A DNA stretch of 64,000 nt from Actinobacteria bacterium HGW-Actinobacteria-2 (GTDB lineage Bacteria; Actinomycetota; Actinomycetes; Propionibacteriales; Propionibacteriaceae). Within the stretch, counting starts at the first letter, position 1; the number at the start of each line of letters is the position of its first letter. The stretch lies in contig PHEY01000001.1 of the NCBI GenBank assembly GCA_002841335.1, positions 248,964 through 312,963 of the forward strand. Reading direction: 5' to 3'. Below the pieces are notes generated by a model that made no database searches, was not told where the DNA came from, and saw only the letters and a program-made list of their open reading frames with translations. A program made the position numbers and the translations under genes. Below are positions 1-58,412 of the stretch, piece after piece.

Positions 1-564
1 CGCGACACCGATGTCGGGATCGTTGGCCACCAGGTCGGCGACTCGGTCACAGGCGACCTCGGCGTCGCGGGTCGAGTACCCCAGCCCCTCCAGGCCGCCG
101 CGGACCTGTTCACGCCAGCCGCCGTCGTCCGCCGGGGTGGTCACCACCGTGGTCGAGCCGACGAAACCGAGCACCTTGTCCTTCAGCTCCAACACCAGCT
201 TGGCCGCCCCCTTGGCGCCGATCCCGGGGACCTTGGTGATGGCGCTGGTGTTATCGGCGCGCACCGCGGATGCAAACTCGGCCGGGGTGAACACCGAACA
301 GATCGCCAGGGCGATCCGCGGCCCGATCCCGGAGGCGGACTGGGCCAACTCGAACAGATCACGCTCGTCGGCGGAGCCGAAGCCGTACAGGGTCAGCGAG
401 TCTTCCCGCACCACCAGTGAGGTGTGCACGATCAGCTGCTCCCCCAGCCGAGCCGAAGCGGCGGTGGCGGGGGTGCACAACACCCGCACGCCGAAGCCGG
501 ACAGATCCAGCTCCACCCACGTGCCGCCGGCGGCGAGCACCTCGCCGCGAAGCCGGGAAATCAT
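1..564 (-). CDS. ruvA: Holliday junction branch migration protein RuvA (C-terminus cut by window edge)
   Basis: RuvA binds four-way junctions as a tetramer and loads the RuvB motor for branch migration in recombinational repair. The 188 codons visible begin MISRLRGEV, typical of RuvA, followed by the OB-fold. Two helix-hairpin-helix motifs follow, near residue 80 (SGIGPRIALAI) and near residue 115 (VPGIGAKGAAKLVLEL). RuvA is usually about 200 residues, so only the last 10-15 are missing; the reading frame runs off the left edge. The ATG overlaps the ruvC stop as ATGA, so translation is coupled to ruvC. Expression should follow the LexA-boxed promoter upstream of ruvC; ruvB presumably lies beyond the edge. 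Confidence 0.95.
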   Translation of the reverse strand, partial: MISRLRGEVLAAGGTWVELDLSGFGVRVLCTPATAASARLGEQLIVHTSLVVREDSLTLYGFGSADERDLFELAQSASGIGPRIALAICSVFTPAEFASAVRADNTSAITKVPGIGAKGAAKLVLELKDKVLGFVGSTTVVTTPADDGGWREQVRGGLEGLGYSTRDAEVACDRVADLVANDPDIGVA

Positions 565-1068
565 GCGCTTGCCTTCCTACCCTGCCGAGCTATCGCCTCG
601 GCCATCCGATCACTGGCTGCCCCGCGCCACAGGTGGCAGATCGCCAGCGCGACCGCGTCGGCAGCATCTGCCGGTTTGGGGGGTGCATCCAGACGGAGGA
701 GCCGAGCCACCATGTGGCCGACTTGGGCCTTGTCGGCTCGCCCGGAGCCGGTGATGGCGGCCTTGACCTCAGTCGGGGTGTGGGTGAACACCGGCAGCCC
801 GGCACGGGCACCGGCGACCATCGCCAGGCCTGCGGCCTGCGCGGTGCCGATCACCGAATGCAGATTGTGCTCGGCGAAGACGCGCTCCACCGCGACCACG
901 TCCGGATGATGCTCGGCGATCCATTCGGTCAGCGCGGTCTCGATCATCAGCAACCGTCGCGACGGATCCAGATCGGCGGGGGTGGTGATCACGCTGCCGA
1001 CCAGGGGCTCCGTCCACCACACCGACCCCACAACGGGTCAGGCCGGGATCGACTCCCAGTACTCGCAT
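561..1068 (-). pseudogene. ruvC: Crossover junction endodeoxyribonuclease RuvC, apparent frameshift
   Basis: RuvC resolves Holliday junctions as a dimeric RNase H-like nuclease with four acidic residues. The start at 1068 gives MRVLGVDPGLTRCGVGVVDG, which contains the first catalytic Asp (GVDPG). That frame then becomes nonsense near 1003. The rest of the protein (VITTPADLDPSRRLL, VVAVERVFAEHN, GSGRADKAQVGHMV, DAADAVALAICH) is in another frame down to 561. The GTG at 1031 in the second frame would give a protein lacking the first Asp. Compared with E. coli and mycobacterial RuvC, about six residues are missing at the break. A deletion of 3n+2 bases (for example 17) would explain both the gap and the frame change. 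A sequencing error is the main alternative, since downstream residues look fully conserved. Confidence 0.8.
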
Positions 1069-1079
1069 GCGCGCCGCCT

Positions 1080-1097
1080 TCCGAACAGATGTTCGGA
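1080..1097 (-). promoter_or_regulatory. LexA-type SOS box upstream of ruvC
   Basis: The sequence TCCGAACAGATGTTCGGA is a perfect palindrome with 8-bp arms and a 2-bp centre. Its core CGAACAGATGTTCG matches the Gram-positive/actinobacterial LexA consensus CGAACRNRYGTTYC at all but the last base. It ends 12 bp before the ruvC start and directly abuts the predicted -10 element, so bound LexA would block initiation. ruv genes are classic SOS genes. The site itself is seen in the sequence; LexA control is inferred. Confidence 0.85.
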
Positions 1098-18133: not shown

Positions 18134-18697
18134 TCAGGACTCCAACAGCTCGACCAGTCGGACCATGGTGTTCAGATTTCGAGCGGTCAGCACCGCCGGC
18201 GCGGCGACCCGCGCCATCCCCGCCGCGAGCCGAGAGGATGCCTGGCCGTCAGGGAAGGCGGCGAAGACGTCCGCCCCCACGACCTGCAGCCTTTCGGTGC
18301 CCGACGCCAGCGCCACCAGCCGATCGATCGTGGCCTGGTCCAGTTCACGATCGGCGCAGGCGATCACCGTCCGGGCCGGATCGCCGGAGGCGAACGGGTG
18401 TTGATCGATCAGTGCTCGTAGTTGTGCGCCCGTGCGGATCACCACCGCCACGTCCATCCGCAACTCGGCAGCGATCGCGACGCTCAACGCCGCGGCCAGG
18501 TCCTCGTCGTAGCCGGAGGCTCGAAAGAGCAGGTTTCCGCTGCGCAGCACGGTGGTCAACTCGGTCCACCCCAGCCCGCGCGCGACATCAATCAGAGCCG
18601 ACATCGACAGCTGAGCGGCCCGACCGACATTCACCCCGCGCAGAAGTGCCACCCGCCGTGGCGGTGGAGTCCCATCGGGGCGGTGAGCTACCGTCAT
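18134..18697 (-). CDS. DUF1697 domain-containing protein
   Basis: A 187-residue protein of the DUF1697 family (function unknown). The conserved opening RRVALLRGVNVGR and the LTTVLRSGNLLF segment identify it. ATG 18697 is chosen because a GATAAT -10 box ends 6 nt before it; longer in-frame extensions would cross into arginase. It is divergent from rocF with only 39 bp between start codons. Confidence 0.8.
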   Translation of the reverse strand: MTVAHRPDGTPPPRRVALLRGVNVGRAAQLSMSALIDVARGLGWTELTTVLRSGNLLFRASGYDEDLAAALSVAIAAELRMDVAVVIRTGAQLRALIDQHPFASGDPARTVIACADRELDQATIDRLVALASGTERLQVVGADVFAAFPDGQASSRLAAGMARVAAPAVLTARNLNTMVRLVELLES

Positions 18698-18703
18698 AGC
18701 TGG

Positions 18704-18709
18704 ATTATC
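18704..18709 (-). promoter_or_regulatory. -10 element (GATAAT), leaderless start for DUF1697 gene
   Basis: On the minus strand GATAAT, a near-consensus -10, is followed by 6 nt and then the ATG at 18697. Confidence 0.55.
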
Positions 18710-18736
18710 CCCGACTTTCGGAACAGGACCAGTGCA

Positions 18737-19663
18737 GTGTTGCAGCAGGTAAGTCTTATCGGAGCCCCCACCGACATCGGCGCATCGCGCCTGGGCTGTC
18801 GCCTCGGACCGCAGGCATTGCGGGTAGCCGGCCTCGGATCGGCGTTGGCCGGGTTCGGCTGTGATGTGCGCGACGTCGGCGATCTCACTGGACCCGACAA
18901 CCCGCAACTGCCCCCGGTGAACGGCTATCGCCACCTGGACGAGGTCATCGCCTGGAACCGCGCGGTCTACGAGGCCACCGCTCAGGAGTTGGCCGACGGA
19001 CGCCTACCCATCCTGCTCGGCGGCGATCACAGCCTGGCCATCGGGTCAATCAGCGCGGTCGCCGCGCACTGTCGCCGAGTCGGCAAGAAACTGCGGGTGA
19101 TCTGGGTGGACGCCCACGCCGACTTCAACACCGCTGAACTCACCCCGTCCGGGAACATCCACGGGATGCCGGTGGCCTGTCTGGCCGGCCACGGCCCGGC
19201 TGCGCTCACCGAAATGTCCGGGCAGCGTCCGGCGATCTCCACCGATCAGATTCGTCAGGTGGGGCTGCGCAGCGTCGATGTCGGCGAGAAGTCGTTCCTG
19301 CGCGCCGAAGGTGTGGAGGTCTTCGACATGCGCTTCATCGACGAGATCGGCATGCGCCGCACCATGGTGCGCGCGTTGGCCGGGGTGGACGCCGATACCC
19401 ACCTGCACCTGAGCATCGACCTGGACTTCGTCGACCCCGAGGTCGCCCCGGGCGTGGGCACGCCGGTGCGCGGCGGGGCCACCTACCGCGAGGCGCAGCT
19501 CTGCATGGAGATGGTCGCCGACACCGGACGACTCGGTTCGATCGATCTGGTCGAGGTCAACCCGGCCCTGGATGAGCACAACACCACCGCTGAGCTCACC
19601 GTCGACCTGGTCGAGTCTCTGTTCGGCAAGTCGACCTTGGAGCGGCTGCGCACCGAGGAGTAG
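18737..19663 (+). CDS. rocF: Arginase / ureohydrolase family
   Basis: A 308-residue binuclear-Mn ureohydrolase that splits arginine to ornithine and urea. Metal ligands are visible in LLGGDHSLAIG, IWVDAHADFNT and LSIDLDFVDPEVAPGVGTP. The N-terminus SLIGAPTDIGASRLGCRLGP and the size fit arginase better than agmatinase or formiminoglutamase. Start codons GTG 18737 and TTG 18740 are adjacent; GTG is used here. No ornithine aminotransferase or urease is nearby. It converges with a membrane-protein gene 4 bp away. Confidence 0.88.
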   Translation: MLQQVSLIGAPTDIGASRLGCRLGPQALRVAGLGSALAGFGCDVRDVGDLTGPDNPQLPPVNGYRHLDEVIAWNRAVYEATAQELADGRLPILLGGDHSLAIGSISAVAAHCRRVGKKLRVIWVDAHADFNTAELTPSGNIHGMPVACLAGHGPAALTEMSGQRPAISTDQIRQVGLRSVDVGEKSFLRAEGVEVFDMRFIDEIGMRRTMVRALAGVDADTHLHLSIDLDFVDPEVAPGVGTPVRGGATYREAQLCMEMVADTGRLGSIDLVEVNPALDEHNTTAELTVDLVESLFGKSTLERLRTEE

Positions 19664-48613: not shown

Positions 48614-49689
48614 CAGGTGCCCGTGGCCGCGATGGTGGCCGCCCCGACCACCCGATCACCGTCGTAGTGGACGGCAGCCTGGCCAGGTGAGACGCCGAAC
48701 ATCGGCGCGTCCAGTTCGATCTCGAGCCGGTCCGCGACGGCGGTGAAGGTCGCGGGCACCGCCTCGGCGTGGGCACGCACCTGCACCAGGCCACGCCAGG
48801 AGCCGCCCACCGCGGCTTCGGTCCAGGTCGGACGAATGGCGCTGATCGTGCGCACCGCCAGCTGCTGCTTGGCCCCGACGGTGACGGTGTTGCTCACCGG
48901 GTCCAGCCCGACCACATACCGCGGACGCCCGTCGGCGGCGGGCACCGACAGGTGCAGGCCGTGACGCTGGCCCACGGTGTAGCGGTAGTAGCCCTGATGA
49001 GCGCCCAGCACCTCGCCGTCGACGTCGACGATGTCGCCGCTGCGCCGACCGAGCCGGTCGTCCAAGAAGCCACCGGTGTCGCCGGTGGGGATGAAGCAGA
49101 TGTCGTAGCTGTCGGGCTTGTCGGCGACCAGGAGACCCCGCTCGGCGGCCTCAACCCGCAGCTCGAGCTTGGAAACGACCTCGCCCAGCGGGAACTCGCA
49201 GTGCGCCAGTTGCTCGGCGGTGAGCACCCCGAGCACGTAGGACTGGTCTTTGGCCGGTTCGGCTGCCCGGTACAGCGACACCTGGTCGTCGGTGCGGTCC
49301 AGCCGGGCGTAGTGCCCGGTGGCCACCCGCTCGAAGCCGAGCGCGACCCCGCGTTCCAGCACCGCGGCGAACTTGATCTTCTCGTTGCAGCGCAGACAGG
49401 GGTTCGGCGTGCGTCCGGCGGCGTACTCGCTGACGAAGTCGGCCACCACGTCATCGGCGAAGCGCTCGGAGAAGTCCCACACGTAGAACGGGATCCCCAA
49501 CACGTCCGCGGCGCGCCGGGCGTCGTTGGCGTCGGCGATCGAGCAGCACCCCCGCGAGCCGCTGCGGAACAGCTCAGGGTTACGCGACAGGGCCAGATGC
49601 ACCCCGGTGACCTCGTGACCGGCCTCCACCAGGCGCGCGGCAGCCACGGCGGAATCGACTCCACCCGACATCGCGGCCAAGACCCGCAT
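48613..49689 (-). CDS. mnmA: tRNA-specific 2-thiouridylase MnmA
   Basis: A 358-residue PP-loop ATPase inserting sulfur at U34 of Glu/Gln/Lys tRNAs. The PP-loop [15 protein letters not shown], first catalytic Cys in [12 protein letters not shown] and second in [13 protein letters not shown] are visible. A GAGAGG ribosome site favours ATG 49689; GTG 49695 is in frame. It follows iscS, its likely sulfur source, by about 27 bp. Confidence 0.95.
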
Positions 49690-49716
49690 CGACACCCCTC
49701 TCGGAACCGTTGGAGT

Positions 49717-50850
49717 CTACGTCGCCACGGCGCGCCGTGCGGTCTGCACTGCACCGGGCAACACCGCCACCAGGCGATCGACGTCGGCCGAGGTGGTAGT
49801 AGCACCGAAGGAGAACCGCAGGCTGGCGCCGGCTTCAGCCCGGCTGCGCCCCATGGCGAGGAGCACCTCGCTGGGTTGGTGCATCCCCGCCGTGCACGCC
49901 GAGCCGGTGGACGCATCGATCCCGGCCGCGTCCAGCAGCAGCAGAACGTCGTCGGCCCGGGTGCCGGGGAAGGTCAGGTTGATGATCGCCGGACTGTGCT
50001 CCTCGGCGGAGTTGTCCACCGCACCGTCGATCACAGCGGTGAGCGCCGCCACTCGAGCCCGCAGCGCCTCCAAACGCTCGGCCTCGGCGGCCAGGACGTC
50101 CACGGCGGCCTGGGCAGCGGCGGCGAAGCCGGCCACCAGCGCCACCGGAACCGTGCCGGAGCGAAGCTTGGCCTCCTGGCCGCCGCCGAACCCGCTGGCC
50201 CGCAGCCGCGTTCCGCGCCGGACGACCAGCGCCCCGACTCCCACCGGACCGCCCAGCTTGTGGGCGCTCAGGCTGAGCAGATCCAGCCCGGTCGCCGCGA
50301 AATCGATGGGCAGATGCCCGAACGCCTGGACGCCGTCGCTGTGCGCGAGCGCGCCGCCGGCGTGGGTCCGCTCGACGATCGCAGGCACGTCCTGGATCAC
50401 GCCGGTCTCGTTGTTGACCCACATCACCGACGCGATTGCGGCGCCGTCGACCAGGCGGGCGAAGTCGTCGAGGTCAAGCCGTCCATTCGCATCGACGCCG
50501 GCAACCGCGACCCGGTCGCGCAGGCGACCGATCTCGGCCACCGAGGGATGTTCGATCGCCGAGATCACCACCGGCGCATCAGCGTCAGCCGCGCCGAGCA
50601 GGGCCAGGTTGTTGGCCTCGGTACCCCCGGAGGTGAACACGACTTCGCCGGGCTGAGCGCCGAGGCAGGCGGCCAGGGACTCGCGGGCTTCCTCCACGAT
50701 CCGCCGCGCGCCCCGTCCGGACCCGTGCAGGGCGGAAGGATTACCGTAGCCAGCAAGGGTTTCGGCGATCACGGCGATCACCGACGCCGACATCGGCGAA
50801 CTGGCGGCGTGGTCGACATATGACCGCGACACGTTGATCGAGGTCGTCAT
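49717..50850 (-). CDS. iscS: Cysteine desulfurase (IscS/NifS-like)
   Basis: A 377-residue class V PLP enzyme mobilising sulfur from cysteine. The opening YVDHAASSPMS, FTSGGTEANNLALLG, PLP lysine in SLSAHKLGGPVGVGALVV and the persulfide Cys in STGSACTAGMHQPS are clear. It begins an iscS-mnmA-metE-like-ligA run. GGAAGG precedes ATG 50850. It is divergent from glgX, and the two predicted -10 boxes overlap (plus 50906-50911, minus 50907-50902). Confidence 0.93.
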   Translation of the reverse strand: MTTSINVSRSYVDHAASSPMSASVIAVIAETLAGYGNPSALHGSGRGARRIVEEARESLAACLGAQPGEVVFTSGGTEANNLALLGAADADAPVVISAIEHPSVAEIGRLRDRVAVAGVDANGRLDLDDFARLVDGAAIASVMWVNNETGVIQDVPAIVERTHAGGALAHSDGVQAFGHLPIDFAATGLDLLSLSAHKLGGPVGVGALVVRRGTRLRASGFGGGQEAKLRSGTVPVALVAGFAAAAQAAVDVLAAEAERLEALRARVAALTAVIDGAVDNSAEEHSPAIINLTFPGTRADDVLLLLDAAGIDASTGSACTAGMHQPSEVLLAMGRSRAEAGASLRFSFGATTTSADVDRLVAVLPGAVQTARRAVAT

Positions 50851-55236: not shown

Positions 55237-56499
55237 ATGCATCCTGGGCAGGCCTGGCACACCTTGTTGCCGCGGATGCGGTGGTTCGCCGGCAAGAGTC
55301 GGGTGATCGCCGAGGTCGTTCTCACGCCGCTGCCGTGGGCCACAGCCGAGGGCGCCTGGCCCGCCGTGCGCACCGAGATGCTGGACGTCCGCTACGCCGA
55401 CGGCGGTACCGAGACCTATCACCTGATCTCGGCCTACCGGCGCGACGGAATCGACGGCCTGACCCTGGCAATCGTGGACGTCGACGGCCTGGGCTCGGTG
55501 GCGCTCAGCGATGCCGCCGCTGACCCAGACGCGTTCGCCGCCTACGCCGCCTCGGTCGACATCGACCCGCTTGTCGAGCTGTGGGCGCGTCCGCAGCCGT
55601 TGGGGGTCGAGCAGTCCAACAGCAGCGTCCGGATCGCCGCCAACGCCCTGTTCAAGGTGCTGCGACGCCCCCAGGTGGGTGGCCAGCGCGAGCTTGAACT
55701 ACTCACCCGGCTGGCTGATTCCGGCGTCACTCCGCGGATTTTCGGCTCCACCTGGAGCAGTGAAGGCGCCCTGACCGGCGTGGTGATGGAGTTCATCTCC
55801 TCGGTCGGCGACGGTTGGCAGCTGGCCACCTCCGCCTGCCGCAACGGCACCGACTTCCGCGGTCCGGCCGCCGAGCTCGGCCGCGCCCTTCGCCTGGTGC
55901 ATCGGCGGCTGGCGACGCCCACTGCCGATGACCCAGGCACCACCACGGTCGCCGGTTCGCAGCTGACCGACGAGCTCATCGGCAGACTGTCCACCGCCGT
56001 CGACGAACTCCCCCAGATCGCCGAGCTGGCCTCCGCGCTGCGAGCGGTGTACGAGGCCGTCGCCCAGACTCCGGTGGCGGTACATCAGATCCACGGCGAC
56101 TTCCATCTCGGCCAGGCGCTCTACCGGGCCGACGCGAACGGGTGGGCACTCATCGACTTCGAGGGTGAGCCGCTGGTCTCGGTTGGCGAGCGCAATCGTC
56201 CAGACTCCCCCTGGCGCGATGTCGCCGGTGCCCTGCGTAGTTTCGACTACGTCCGTGGCGCCCAGGCTCAGCCCGACTCCGCTGCCGTCCGCGCCTGGGC
56301 CGCGAGCGCTCAGGACGCCTTTCTGGCCGGCTACGCCGACGGTGAGACCATTCCCGAAGCGCTGTTGCGGGCCTATGTGCTGGACAAGGCCGTTTACGAG
56401 GTGCGCTACGAAACCAGCAACCGGCCCGAATGGGTCCACATCCCGCTGGAAACAGTCCAAGATGAACTCACCGGCGCACGACGCCGGGACAACAAGTAG
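55237..56499 (+). CDS. mak: Maltokinase
   Basis: A 420-residue bacterial maltokinase (Pep2-type) that phosphorylates maltose with ATP to make the GlgE substrate. The N-cap region RWFAGKSR is typical. The kinase-like core has LGVEQSNSSVRIAANALFKVLRR, the catalytic loop QIHGDFHLGQALYR and metal-binding WALIDFEGEPL. In many genomes it is fused or adjacent to TreS; here it is separate, directly between glgE and glgB. Confidence 0.93.
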   Translation: MHPGQAWHTLLPRMRWFAGKSRVIAEVVLTPLPWATAEGAWPAVRTEMLDVRYADGGTETYHLISAYRRDGIDGLTLAIVDVDGLGSVALSDAAADPDAFAAYAASVDIDPLVELWARPQPLGVEQSNSSVRIAANALFKVLRRPQVGGQRELELLTRLADSGVTPRIFGSTWSSEGALTGVVMEFISSVGDGWQLATSACRNGTDFRGPAAELGRALRLVHRRLATPTADDPGTTTVAGSQLTDELIGRLSTAVDELPQIAELASALRAVYEAVAQTPVAVHQIHGDFHLGQALYRADANGWALIDFEGEPLVSVGERNRPDSPWRDVAGALRSFDYVRGAQAQPDSAAVRAWAASAQDAFLAGYADGETIPEALLRAYVLDKAVYEVRYETSNRPEWVHIPLETVQDELTGARRRDNK

Positions 56500-56510
56500 A
56501 GGAGACGTCG

Positions 56511-58412
56511 ATGGCACACGATCCCAATGGTGGCCTGACCGGCTGGGACCTGGAGGGGTTCCACAGCGGCGGCGACACCGAGTGCTGGCGGCGGCTCGGC
56601 GCCCATGAAGTGACCGTCTTCGACGACGAGCGTGGCGAGGTGCGCGGTACCCGCTTTGCGGTCTGGGCACCCAACGCCAGGGACGTCCGGATCAATGCCG
56701 ACTTCAACTGGTGGACCGGTGACGCCATGCACCTGGTGCCCGGCTCCGGGGTCTGGGCGCTGTTCGTCGAGGGTGTCGGCGAAGGCGCGATGTACAAGTT
56801 CAACATCCTCGGCGCCGACGGCGTCTGGCGGGAGAAGGTCGATCCGATGGCCTTCTTCGCCGAGCAGGCACCAGCCAACTCCTCGATCGTCTACACCTCC
56901 AAGTTCGCCTGGAGCGACCAGGAGTGGCTCGACAGGCGCGCGGCCTCCCGGCCCCATGCCGAGCCGATGAGCGTCTACGAGTTGCACCTGGGTTCGTGGC
57001 GCAAGGGCAAGACCTACCTGGAACTAGCCGACGAGCTGGTCGAATACGTCACCTGGGCCGGGTTCACCCACGTGGAGTTCATGCCGGTCACCGAACACCC
57101 CTTCGAACCCAGCTGGGGCTACCAGGTCACCAACTACTTCGCACCTCAGTCGCGCCTGGGACGTCCCGACGAGTTCCGCTACCTGGTCGACCGGCTGCAC
57201 AACGCCGGCATCGGCGTGATTCTGGACTGGGTGCCGGGCCACTTCCCCAAGGACGAGTGGGCGCTGGGTCGCTTCGACGGCAGTGCCCTCTACGAGCACG
57301 CCGATCCCCGCCAGGGCGAACACAAGGACTGGGGCACCTACATCTTCAACTACGGCCGTAACGAGGTGAAGTCGTTCCTGGTCTCCAACGCGCTGTACTG
57401 GGTGACCGAGTTCCACATCGACGCGCTCCGGGTCGATGCCGTGGCCTCGATGCTCTACCTGGATTACTCCCGCGAAGAGGGCGAATGGGTGCCCAACCAG
57501 TACGGCGGTCGGGAGAACCTGGAGGCCATCGACTTCCTGCGCTACGTGAACTCCCACCTCTACGCCCGGGTGCCCGGCGTGGTGATGATCGCTGAAGAGT
57601 CCACCTCCTTCCCCGGGGTCACCAAGCCCGTCCATGACGGCGGCCTGGGCTTCGGCTTCAAGTGGAACATGGGCTGGATGAACGACTCGCTGCGCTACTT
57701 GCACGAGGAACCGATCAACCGCCAGTACCACCACAACCTGATGACCTTCGCGATGGTGTACGCCTACTCGGAGAACTTCGTGCTGCCGATCTCCCACGAC
57801 GAGGTCGTCCACGGCAAGGGCTCGATGATCAACAAGGTGCCGCAGGACGCCTGGCGCCAGTTCGCCACGCTGCGGGCCTTCTACTCCTTCATGTGGGCCT
57901 TCCCCGGCAAGAAGCTGATCTTCGCCGGGTGCGAGTTCGGCCAGCGCAGCGAGTTCAACGAAGCCGTCAGCCTGGAGTGGTGGGTCAGCGGCCTGTGGGG
58001 CCACCAGGGCCTGCAGCGGATGTTCACCGACCTCAACGCGCTTTACCGCGCCTATCCGGCGCTGTGGGAGTTGGACAGCTCACCCGACGGCTTCCGCTGG
58101 ATCAACGCCGATGACGTCTCGGGCAACACCTTCTCCTGGGTGCGCGCCGACAGCGCCGGCAACCAGCTGGCCGCAGTGATCAACTTCTCCTCCGAGCCGT
58201 GGACCGGCTACCGGATCGGCCTGCCGGCCGCCGGCCAATGGACCGAGGTCTTCAACTCCGACTCCGGCATCTATGACGGCACCGACAACTTCGGCAATCT
58301 CGGCGAAGTGACCGCCGTACCCGAACCGCACAACGGCTTCCCGGCGAGCGCCACCATCGTGGTCCCACCGCTGGCAGCGGTCTACTTCTCCCGATCTGCG
58401 GAACGGGCCTGA
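56511..58412 (+). CDS. glgB: 1,4-alpha-glucan branching enzyme GlgB (short form)
   Basis: A 633-residue GH13_9 enzyme creating alpha-1,6 branches. A CBM48 domain (about 45-130, TRFAVWAPNARDVRI) precedes the barrel. The nucleophile is in IDALRVDAVASM, the acid in VVMIAEESTSFPGVT, and the third acid in PISHDEVVHGKGSM. The extra N-terminal N1 domain of about 110 residues seen in many actinobacterial GlgB proteins is absent. GAGGAG precedes the ATG. Confidence 0.96.
   Translation: MAHDPNGGLTGWDLEGFHSGGDTECWRRLGAHEVTVFDDERGEVRGTRFAVWAPNARDVRINADFNWWTGDAMHLVPGSGVWALFVEGVGEGAMYKFNILGADGVWREKVDPMAFFAEQAPANSSIVYTSKFAWSDQEWLDRRAASRPHAEPMSVYELHLGSWRKGKTYLELADELVEYVTWAGFTHVEFMPVTEHPFEPSWGYQVTNYFAPQSRLGRPDEFRYLVDRLHNAGIGVILDWVPGHFPKDEWALGRFDGSALYEHADPRQGEHKDWGTYIFNYGRNEVKSFLVSNALYWVTEFHIDALRVDAVASMLYLDYSREEGEWVPNQYGGRENLEAIDFLRYVNSHLYARVPGVVMIAEESTSFPGVTKPVHDGGLGFGFKWNMGWMNDSLRYLHEEPINRQYHHNLMTFAMVYAYSENFVLPISHDEVVHGKGSMINKVPQDAWRQFATLRAFYSFMWAFPGKKLIFAGCEFGQRSEFNEAVSLEWWVSGLWGHQGLQRMFTDLNALYRAYPALWELDSSPDGFRWINADDVSGNTFSWVRADSAGNQLAAVINFSSEPWTGYRIGLPAAGQWTEVFNSDSGIYDGTDNFGNLGEVTAVPEPHNGFPASATIVVPPLAAVYFSRSAERA

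Follow-up and report, generated by a model that had tools for sequence, protein, structure and literature searches.

The window, by which we mean the whole 64-kb stretch of DNA that was analysed, belongs to a 2.92-Mb genome in 14 contigs (98.6% complete), and its first 2 kb carry a ruv locus read from the minus strand. The order of genes is an intact yebC/TACO1-type gene (1906-1139), ruvC (1068-561; ATG at 1068-1066, original stop at 563-561), ruvA (564-1, an open frame that runs on beyond the window, 200 amino acids in all) and, beyond the window, a ruvB-like gene with an open frame, which was recognised by eye and not through a family search. Upstream of ruvC lies an intact SOS (LexA)-type box, CGAACATCTGTTCG (1082-1095, minus strand); such a box is found no more than 60 nt upstream of ruvC in 25 of 28 congeneric loci. 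The original ruvC stop and the ruvA ATG overlap in the sequence ATGA, an arrangement shared by 23 of the 28 congeners. Among the best 80 loci listed, the closest come from metagenome-assembled Propionibacteriales, Propionicimonas and Propionibacteriaceae; the first of them (L062) and the nearest congener, G004, give identical alignments with the window. When the first 2 kb were compared with plasmid records, matches of 60-80% were found in nine of them.

A preliminary description had placed ruvC at 561-1068, split between two frames, with its first residues and the first catalytic Asp in one of them. This was borne out, the ATG being at 1068 and the stop at 563-561. In the assembled sequence the ATG side extends to 995/992, and the remainder of the gene is read in another frame at 1031-561. 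The ATG-frame ORF (1068-769, minus strand, 99 amino acids) begins with 25 RuvC residues, the first catalytic Asp among them, which are identical to those of G004 and replace the earlier count of about 22 before the break; out-of-frame sequence then follows as far as a stop at 771-769. The second-frame ORF (1031-561, minus strand, 156 amino acids, GTG start as listed) matched the Pfam RuvC profile PF02075 with 137.8 bits (cut-off 22.2, E 3.3e-40) over positions 29-148, the N-terminal 28 positions being missing, and the ATG-frame ORF gave no match to Pfam. With the NCBIfam equivalog model NF000711 (cut-off 163) neither part reached the threshold: the second frame scored 127.4 bits, and the ATG frame 20 bits over residues 1-49 (E 0.0005). 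The second frame alone passed a further NCBIfam equivalog, TIGR00228 (103.8 bits against 100.65, positions 34-148), despite its absent N-terminus. No single frame holds the whole RuvC domain with all its catalytic acids, the first Asp lying in the ATG frame and the rest elsewhere.

For measurement of the missing stretch, congeneric loci were aligned after seven duplicate loci from the same genomes had been dropped, and the distance from the ATG to the VITTP-equivalent codon was counted. Of the 28 loci, 27 have a distance of 96 nt and one (L056) of 93 nt; in the window it is 76 nt. Ungapped fits to G004 over 100 nt left nine mismatches with a gap of 20 nt, as compared with 19 for a 17-nt gap and 22 for a 23-nt gap, and the net loss relative to G004 is 20 nt (6 2/3 codons); the 17-base loss proposed earlier was revised on both counts. 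Three placements of the gap are equivalent, which sets the junction at 995/992 (positions 992-995, minus strand), 8-11 bases further into ruvC than the break near 1003 that had been described, with a microhomology of 2 nt; a microhomology of this length is readily given by chance. The missing stretch corresponds to seven residues of G004, which align to residues 25-31 of Escherichia coli RuvC.

The same description had explained the loss by slippage between two copies of a direct repeat, CTGGTCGGCAG. The copy at 1004-994 is indeed there, and it is the only one in the window ruvC. The second copy was sought in G004, the nearest relative, which served as a stand-in for the window's own ancestor; its ruvC likewise has one exact CTGGTCGGCAG, with a shorter TGGTCG 17 nt beyond it and no second full copy. 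Since the loss is 20 nt, and since the product of a 17-nt deletion predicted from G004 differs from the window, the slippage model was rejected.

Comparison with the ruvC of close relatives, which had been recommended as a check, was then informative as to how the two frames might be read. Each of the 28 congeneric loci has ruvC in a single open frame, 171-199 amino acids long, in which residue 7 is Asp and the two RuvC active-site motifs further downstream are present. Programmed or efficient +1 frameshifting could in principle join the two frames, as a single +1 shift would do so with loss of whole codons, and would yield a working RuvC lacking seven residues. With one open frame in every congener no conserved frameshift signal is to be expected, and none of the 28 loci shares the split, so a conserved programmed event was dismissed. 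The first-frame stop is moreover >200 nt past the junction, unlike stop-dependent +1 sites, and the protein would be without the residues that align to E. coli 25-31. We regard frameshifting as hardly credible. Internal initiation within the second frame, in which GTG codons are present, would instead supply a truncated RuvC that either works or interferes. Such a protein would be missing the first catalytic Asp together with the N-terminal 28 Pfam positions, and D7A abolished resolution by Deinococcus radiodurans RuvC (PMC9601230); this reading is accorded a very small chance.

Selection on the sequence downstream of the junction was assessed against G004 over 143 codons, which gave dN 0.033, dS 0.813 and dN/dS 0.040. 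The corresponding ratios for neighbouring genes were all higher (ruvA 0.113, yebC 0.070, lplA 0.117), and those for ruvC against five more distant congeners ranged from 0.098 to 0.183. Three amino-acid changes fell on the window branch and five on the G004 branch, with two not assigned to either. The relaxed selection of a decaying pseudogene was not seen over these 143 codons, and neutral evolution as a pseudogene can have occupied no more than about 6-14% of the branch since the split from G004, an estimate that depends on its assumptions and on a high dS. Such strong constraint implies that the lesion is either very recent or an artefact. The earlier view of ruvC as broken by a small out-of-frame loss, recent or made by the assembly, with conserved codons downstream, therefore holds.

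The second of these possibilities, in which the organism has an intact ruvC and the 20 nt were lost in assembly, in polishing or from mixed strain variants, was weighed with a survey of genomes. A RuvC match was obtained in 94 of the 96 genomes searched (own genome included), the two without one, G027 and G031, being 80% and 82% complete. The match starts at profile position 1 in the 93 other genomes and at position 29 in the genome of the window, so that none of the other 93 shares the lesion. In a second search, some of whose genomes are shared with the first set, all 197 genomes of the class at a completeness of at least 95% (own genome included) matched RuvC; every RuvC match among those listed starts at position 1, and the window's own genome and G112, which has a weak match (6.3e-20), fall outside those listed. 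Natural loss of ruvC thus looks rare, which makes an artefact correspondingly likelier. The lack of decay in the downstream codons, as expected of an intact gene, was likewise counted against a real lesion, and assembly errors account for many of the pseudogenes reported in bacteria (PMC11017572). On the other side, the loss is of 20 nt, lies outside any homopolymer and has 2 nt of microhomology. The typical homopolymer error is of one base.

As a further test of the assembly, the window was audited for frame breaks with the genes of G004, G015 and G008, whose best matches cover 53.8-57.2 kb of the 64 kb. The first pass produced eight apparent breaks with G015, six with G008 and four with G004 ORFs, mostly owing to antisense shadow ORFs. 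Four breaks in the window remained in a stricter pass, one of them ruvC, seen with the G015 gene; with the ruvC of G004 and G008 the break had been detected in the first pass and was not in the stricter one. On inspection, the break at about 37.8 kb proved to be a shadow over two complete serC- and serA-like genes, that at about 62.3 kb a shadow ORF, and that at about 56.5 kb a gene boundary, where a single ORF in G008 corresponds to two complete genes in the window. A first-pass break at about 44.5 kb was traced to an over-long reference start, the gene being in one frame in both G015 and G008, and those at about 1.9, 13.8, 21.2, 28.4 and 48.7-49.8 kb were checked visually against the genes listed in the stricter pass. 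The ruvC break is the only credible one in the 53.8-57.2 kb under matches, and the assembly is accordingly not generally poor here, which speaks against an artefact. On balance, an error of this kind is quite possible, at somewhat less than an even chance.

The audit also drew attention to features of the reference genomes. The two genes at 55237-56499 and 56511-58412, maltokinase-like and GlgB-like by appearance, are represented in G008 by one ORF of 1115 amino acids (L151:160-3507), possibly a gene fusion in that genome. The product of 48769-50823 (684 amino acids) matches G015 (L146) in two frames with 43-46% identity, which may reflect a break in G015 and not in the window. For 18422-19663, the match to G008 (L149) is 89% over residues 102-409, with residues 5-96 matched in another frame at 42%; a break or a different start in G008 could explain this.

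Our preferred reading is that ruvC has undergone a recent out-of-frame deletion of 20 nt that makes it a null allele, to which we assign a probability of roughly 0.55; we rate this slightly above an assembly error. We infer that the lesion is present in the cells and abolishes RuvC activity. From the native ATG, translation would yield 25 RuvC residues and then out-of-frame sequence up to the stop at 769, and the second frame, if translated, would carry the remaining active-site acids without the first catalytic Asp. Holliday-junction resolvase activity is not expected of either product, since this Asp and the other acids lie in different frames. Ribosomes would also end 205 nt upstream of the overlapping ruvA start; given the ATGA overlap of the two genes, such early termination might lower translation of ruvA.

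Set beside known systems, the locus resembles that of a standard RuvC (PF02075), the DNA-repair enzyme also called crossover junction endodeoxyribonuclease, in that the second frame is clearly RuvC, the order is yebC-ruvC-ruvA-ruvB and an SOS-type box stands upstream; it differs in that the 20-nt loss breaks the frame and leaves no coding sequence for an intact RuvC. Bacterial pseudogenes that are recent frameshifts or made by the assembly (PMC11017572) likewise have one frame lesion in a gene that is otherwise conserved. The neutralisation of ruvA in Wolbachia is comparable as a loss within the RuvABC pathway, but there (PMC4224334) selection was relaxed in some of the strains, whereas the window ruvC has a single lesion and no sign of relaxation. 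The ruvC of the window is a housekeeping gene that was either broken recently, in an ordinary way, or misassembled; it is not a new biological system. In annotation, the gene is better flagged as disrupted or suspect than listed as a shorter functional one. A real lesion would make this a rare natural ruvC-null actinobacterium, as all 197 genomes of the class that were searched match RuvC, the broken one included.

The genome was then searched with family models for another resolvase, as had also been suggested. PF02075 gave one match only, and RusA, RecU and Hjc gave none, with positive controls for each of these searches; replacement by a second RuvC or by one of these other resolvases was thereby rejected. 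The model for Endonuclease VII had no match in this genome, nor in any control. The search did return RuvX, as an intact open frame whose closest solved relative is a Mycobacterium tuberculosis protein (7ess). PMC9601230, citing another paper on the point, credits the M. tuberculosis YqgF/RuvX with resolvase activity and reports none for D. radiodurans YqgF. A lineage that had truly lost RuvC and kept RuvAB might on this basis now resolve junctions with RuvX, a relative of the reported M. tuberculosis resolvase. Since RuvX is a normal gene that 10 of the 14 control genomes also carry, its presence is no sign of compensation; we consider such a replacement highly unlikely. RecG-like helicases are present as well, the best scoring 614.6 bits, below the model cut-off of 659.4, and a real lesion would put to the test whether RuvX or RecG can replace RuvC.
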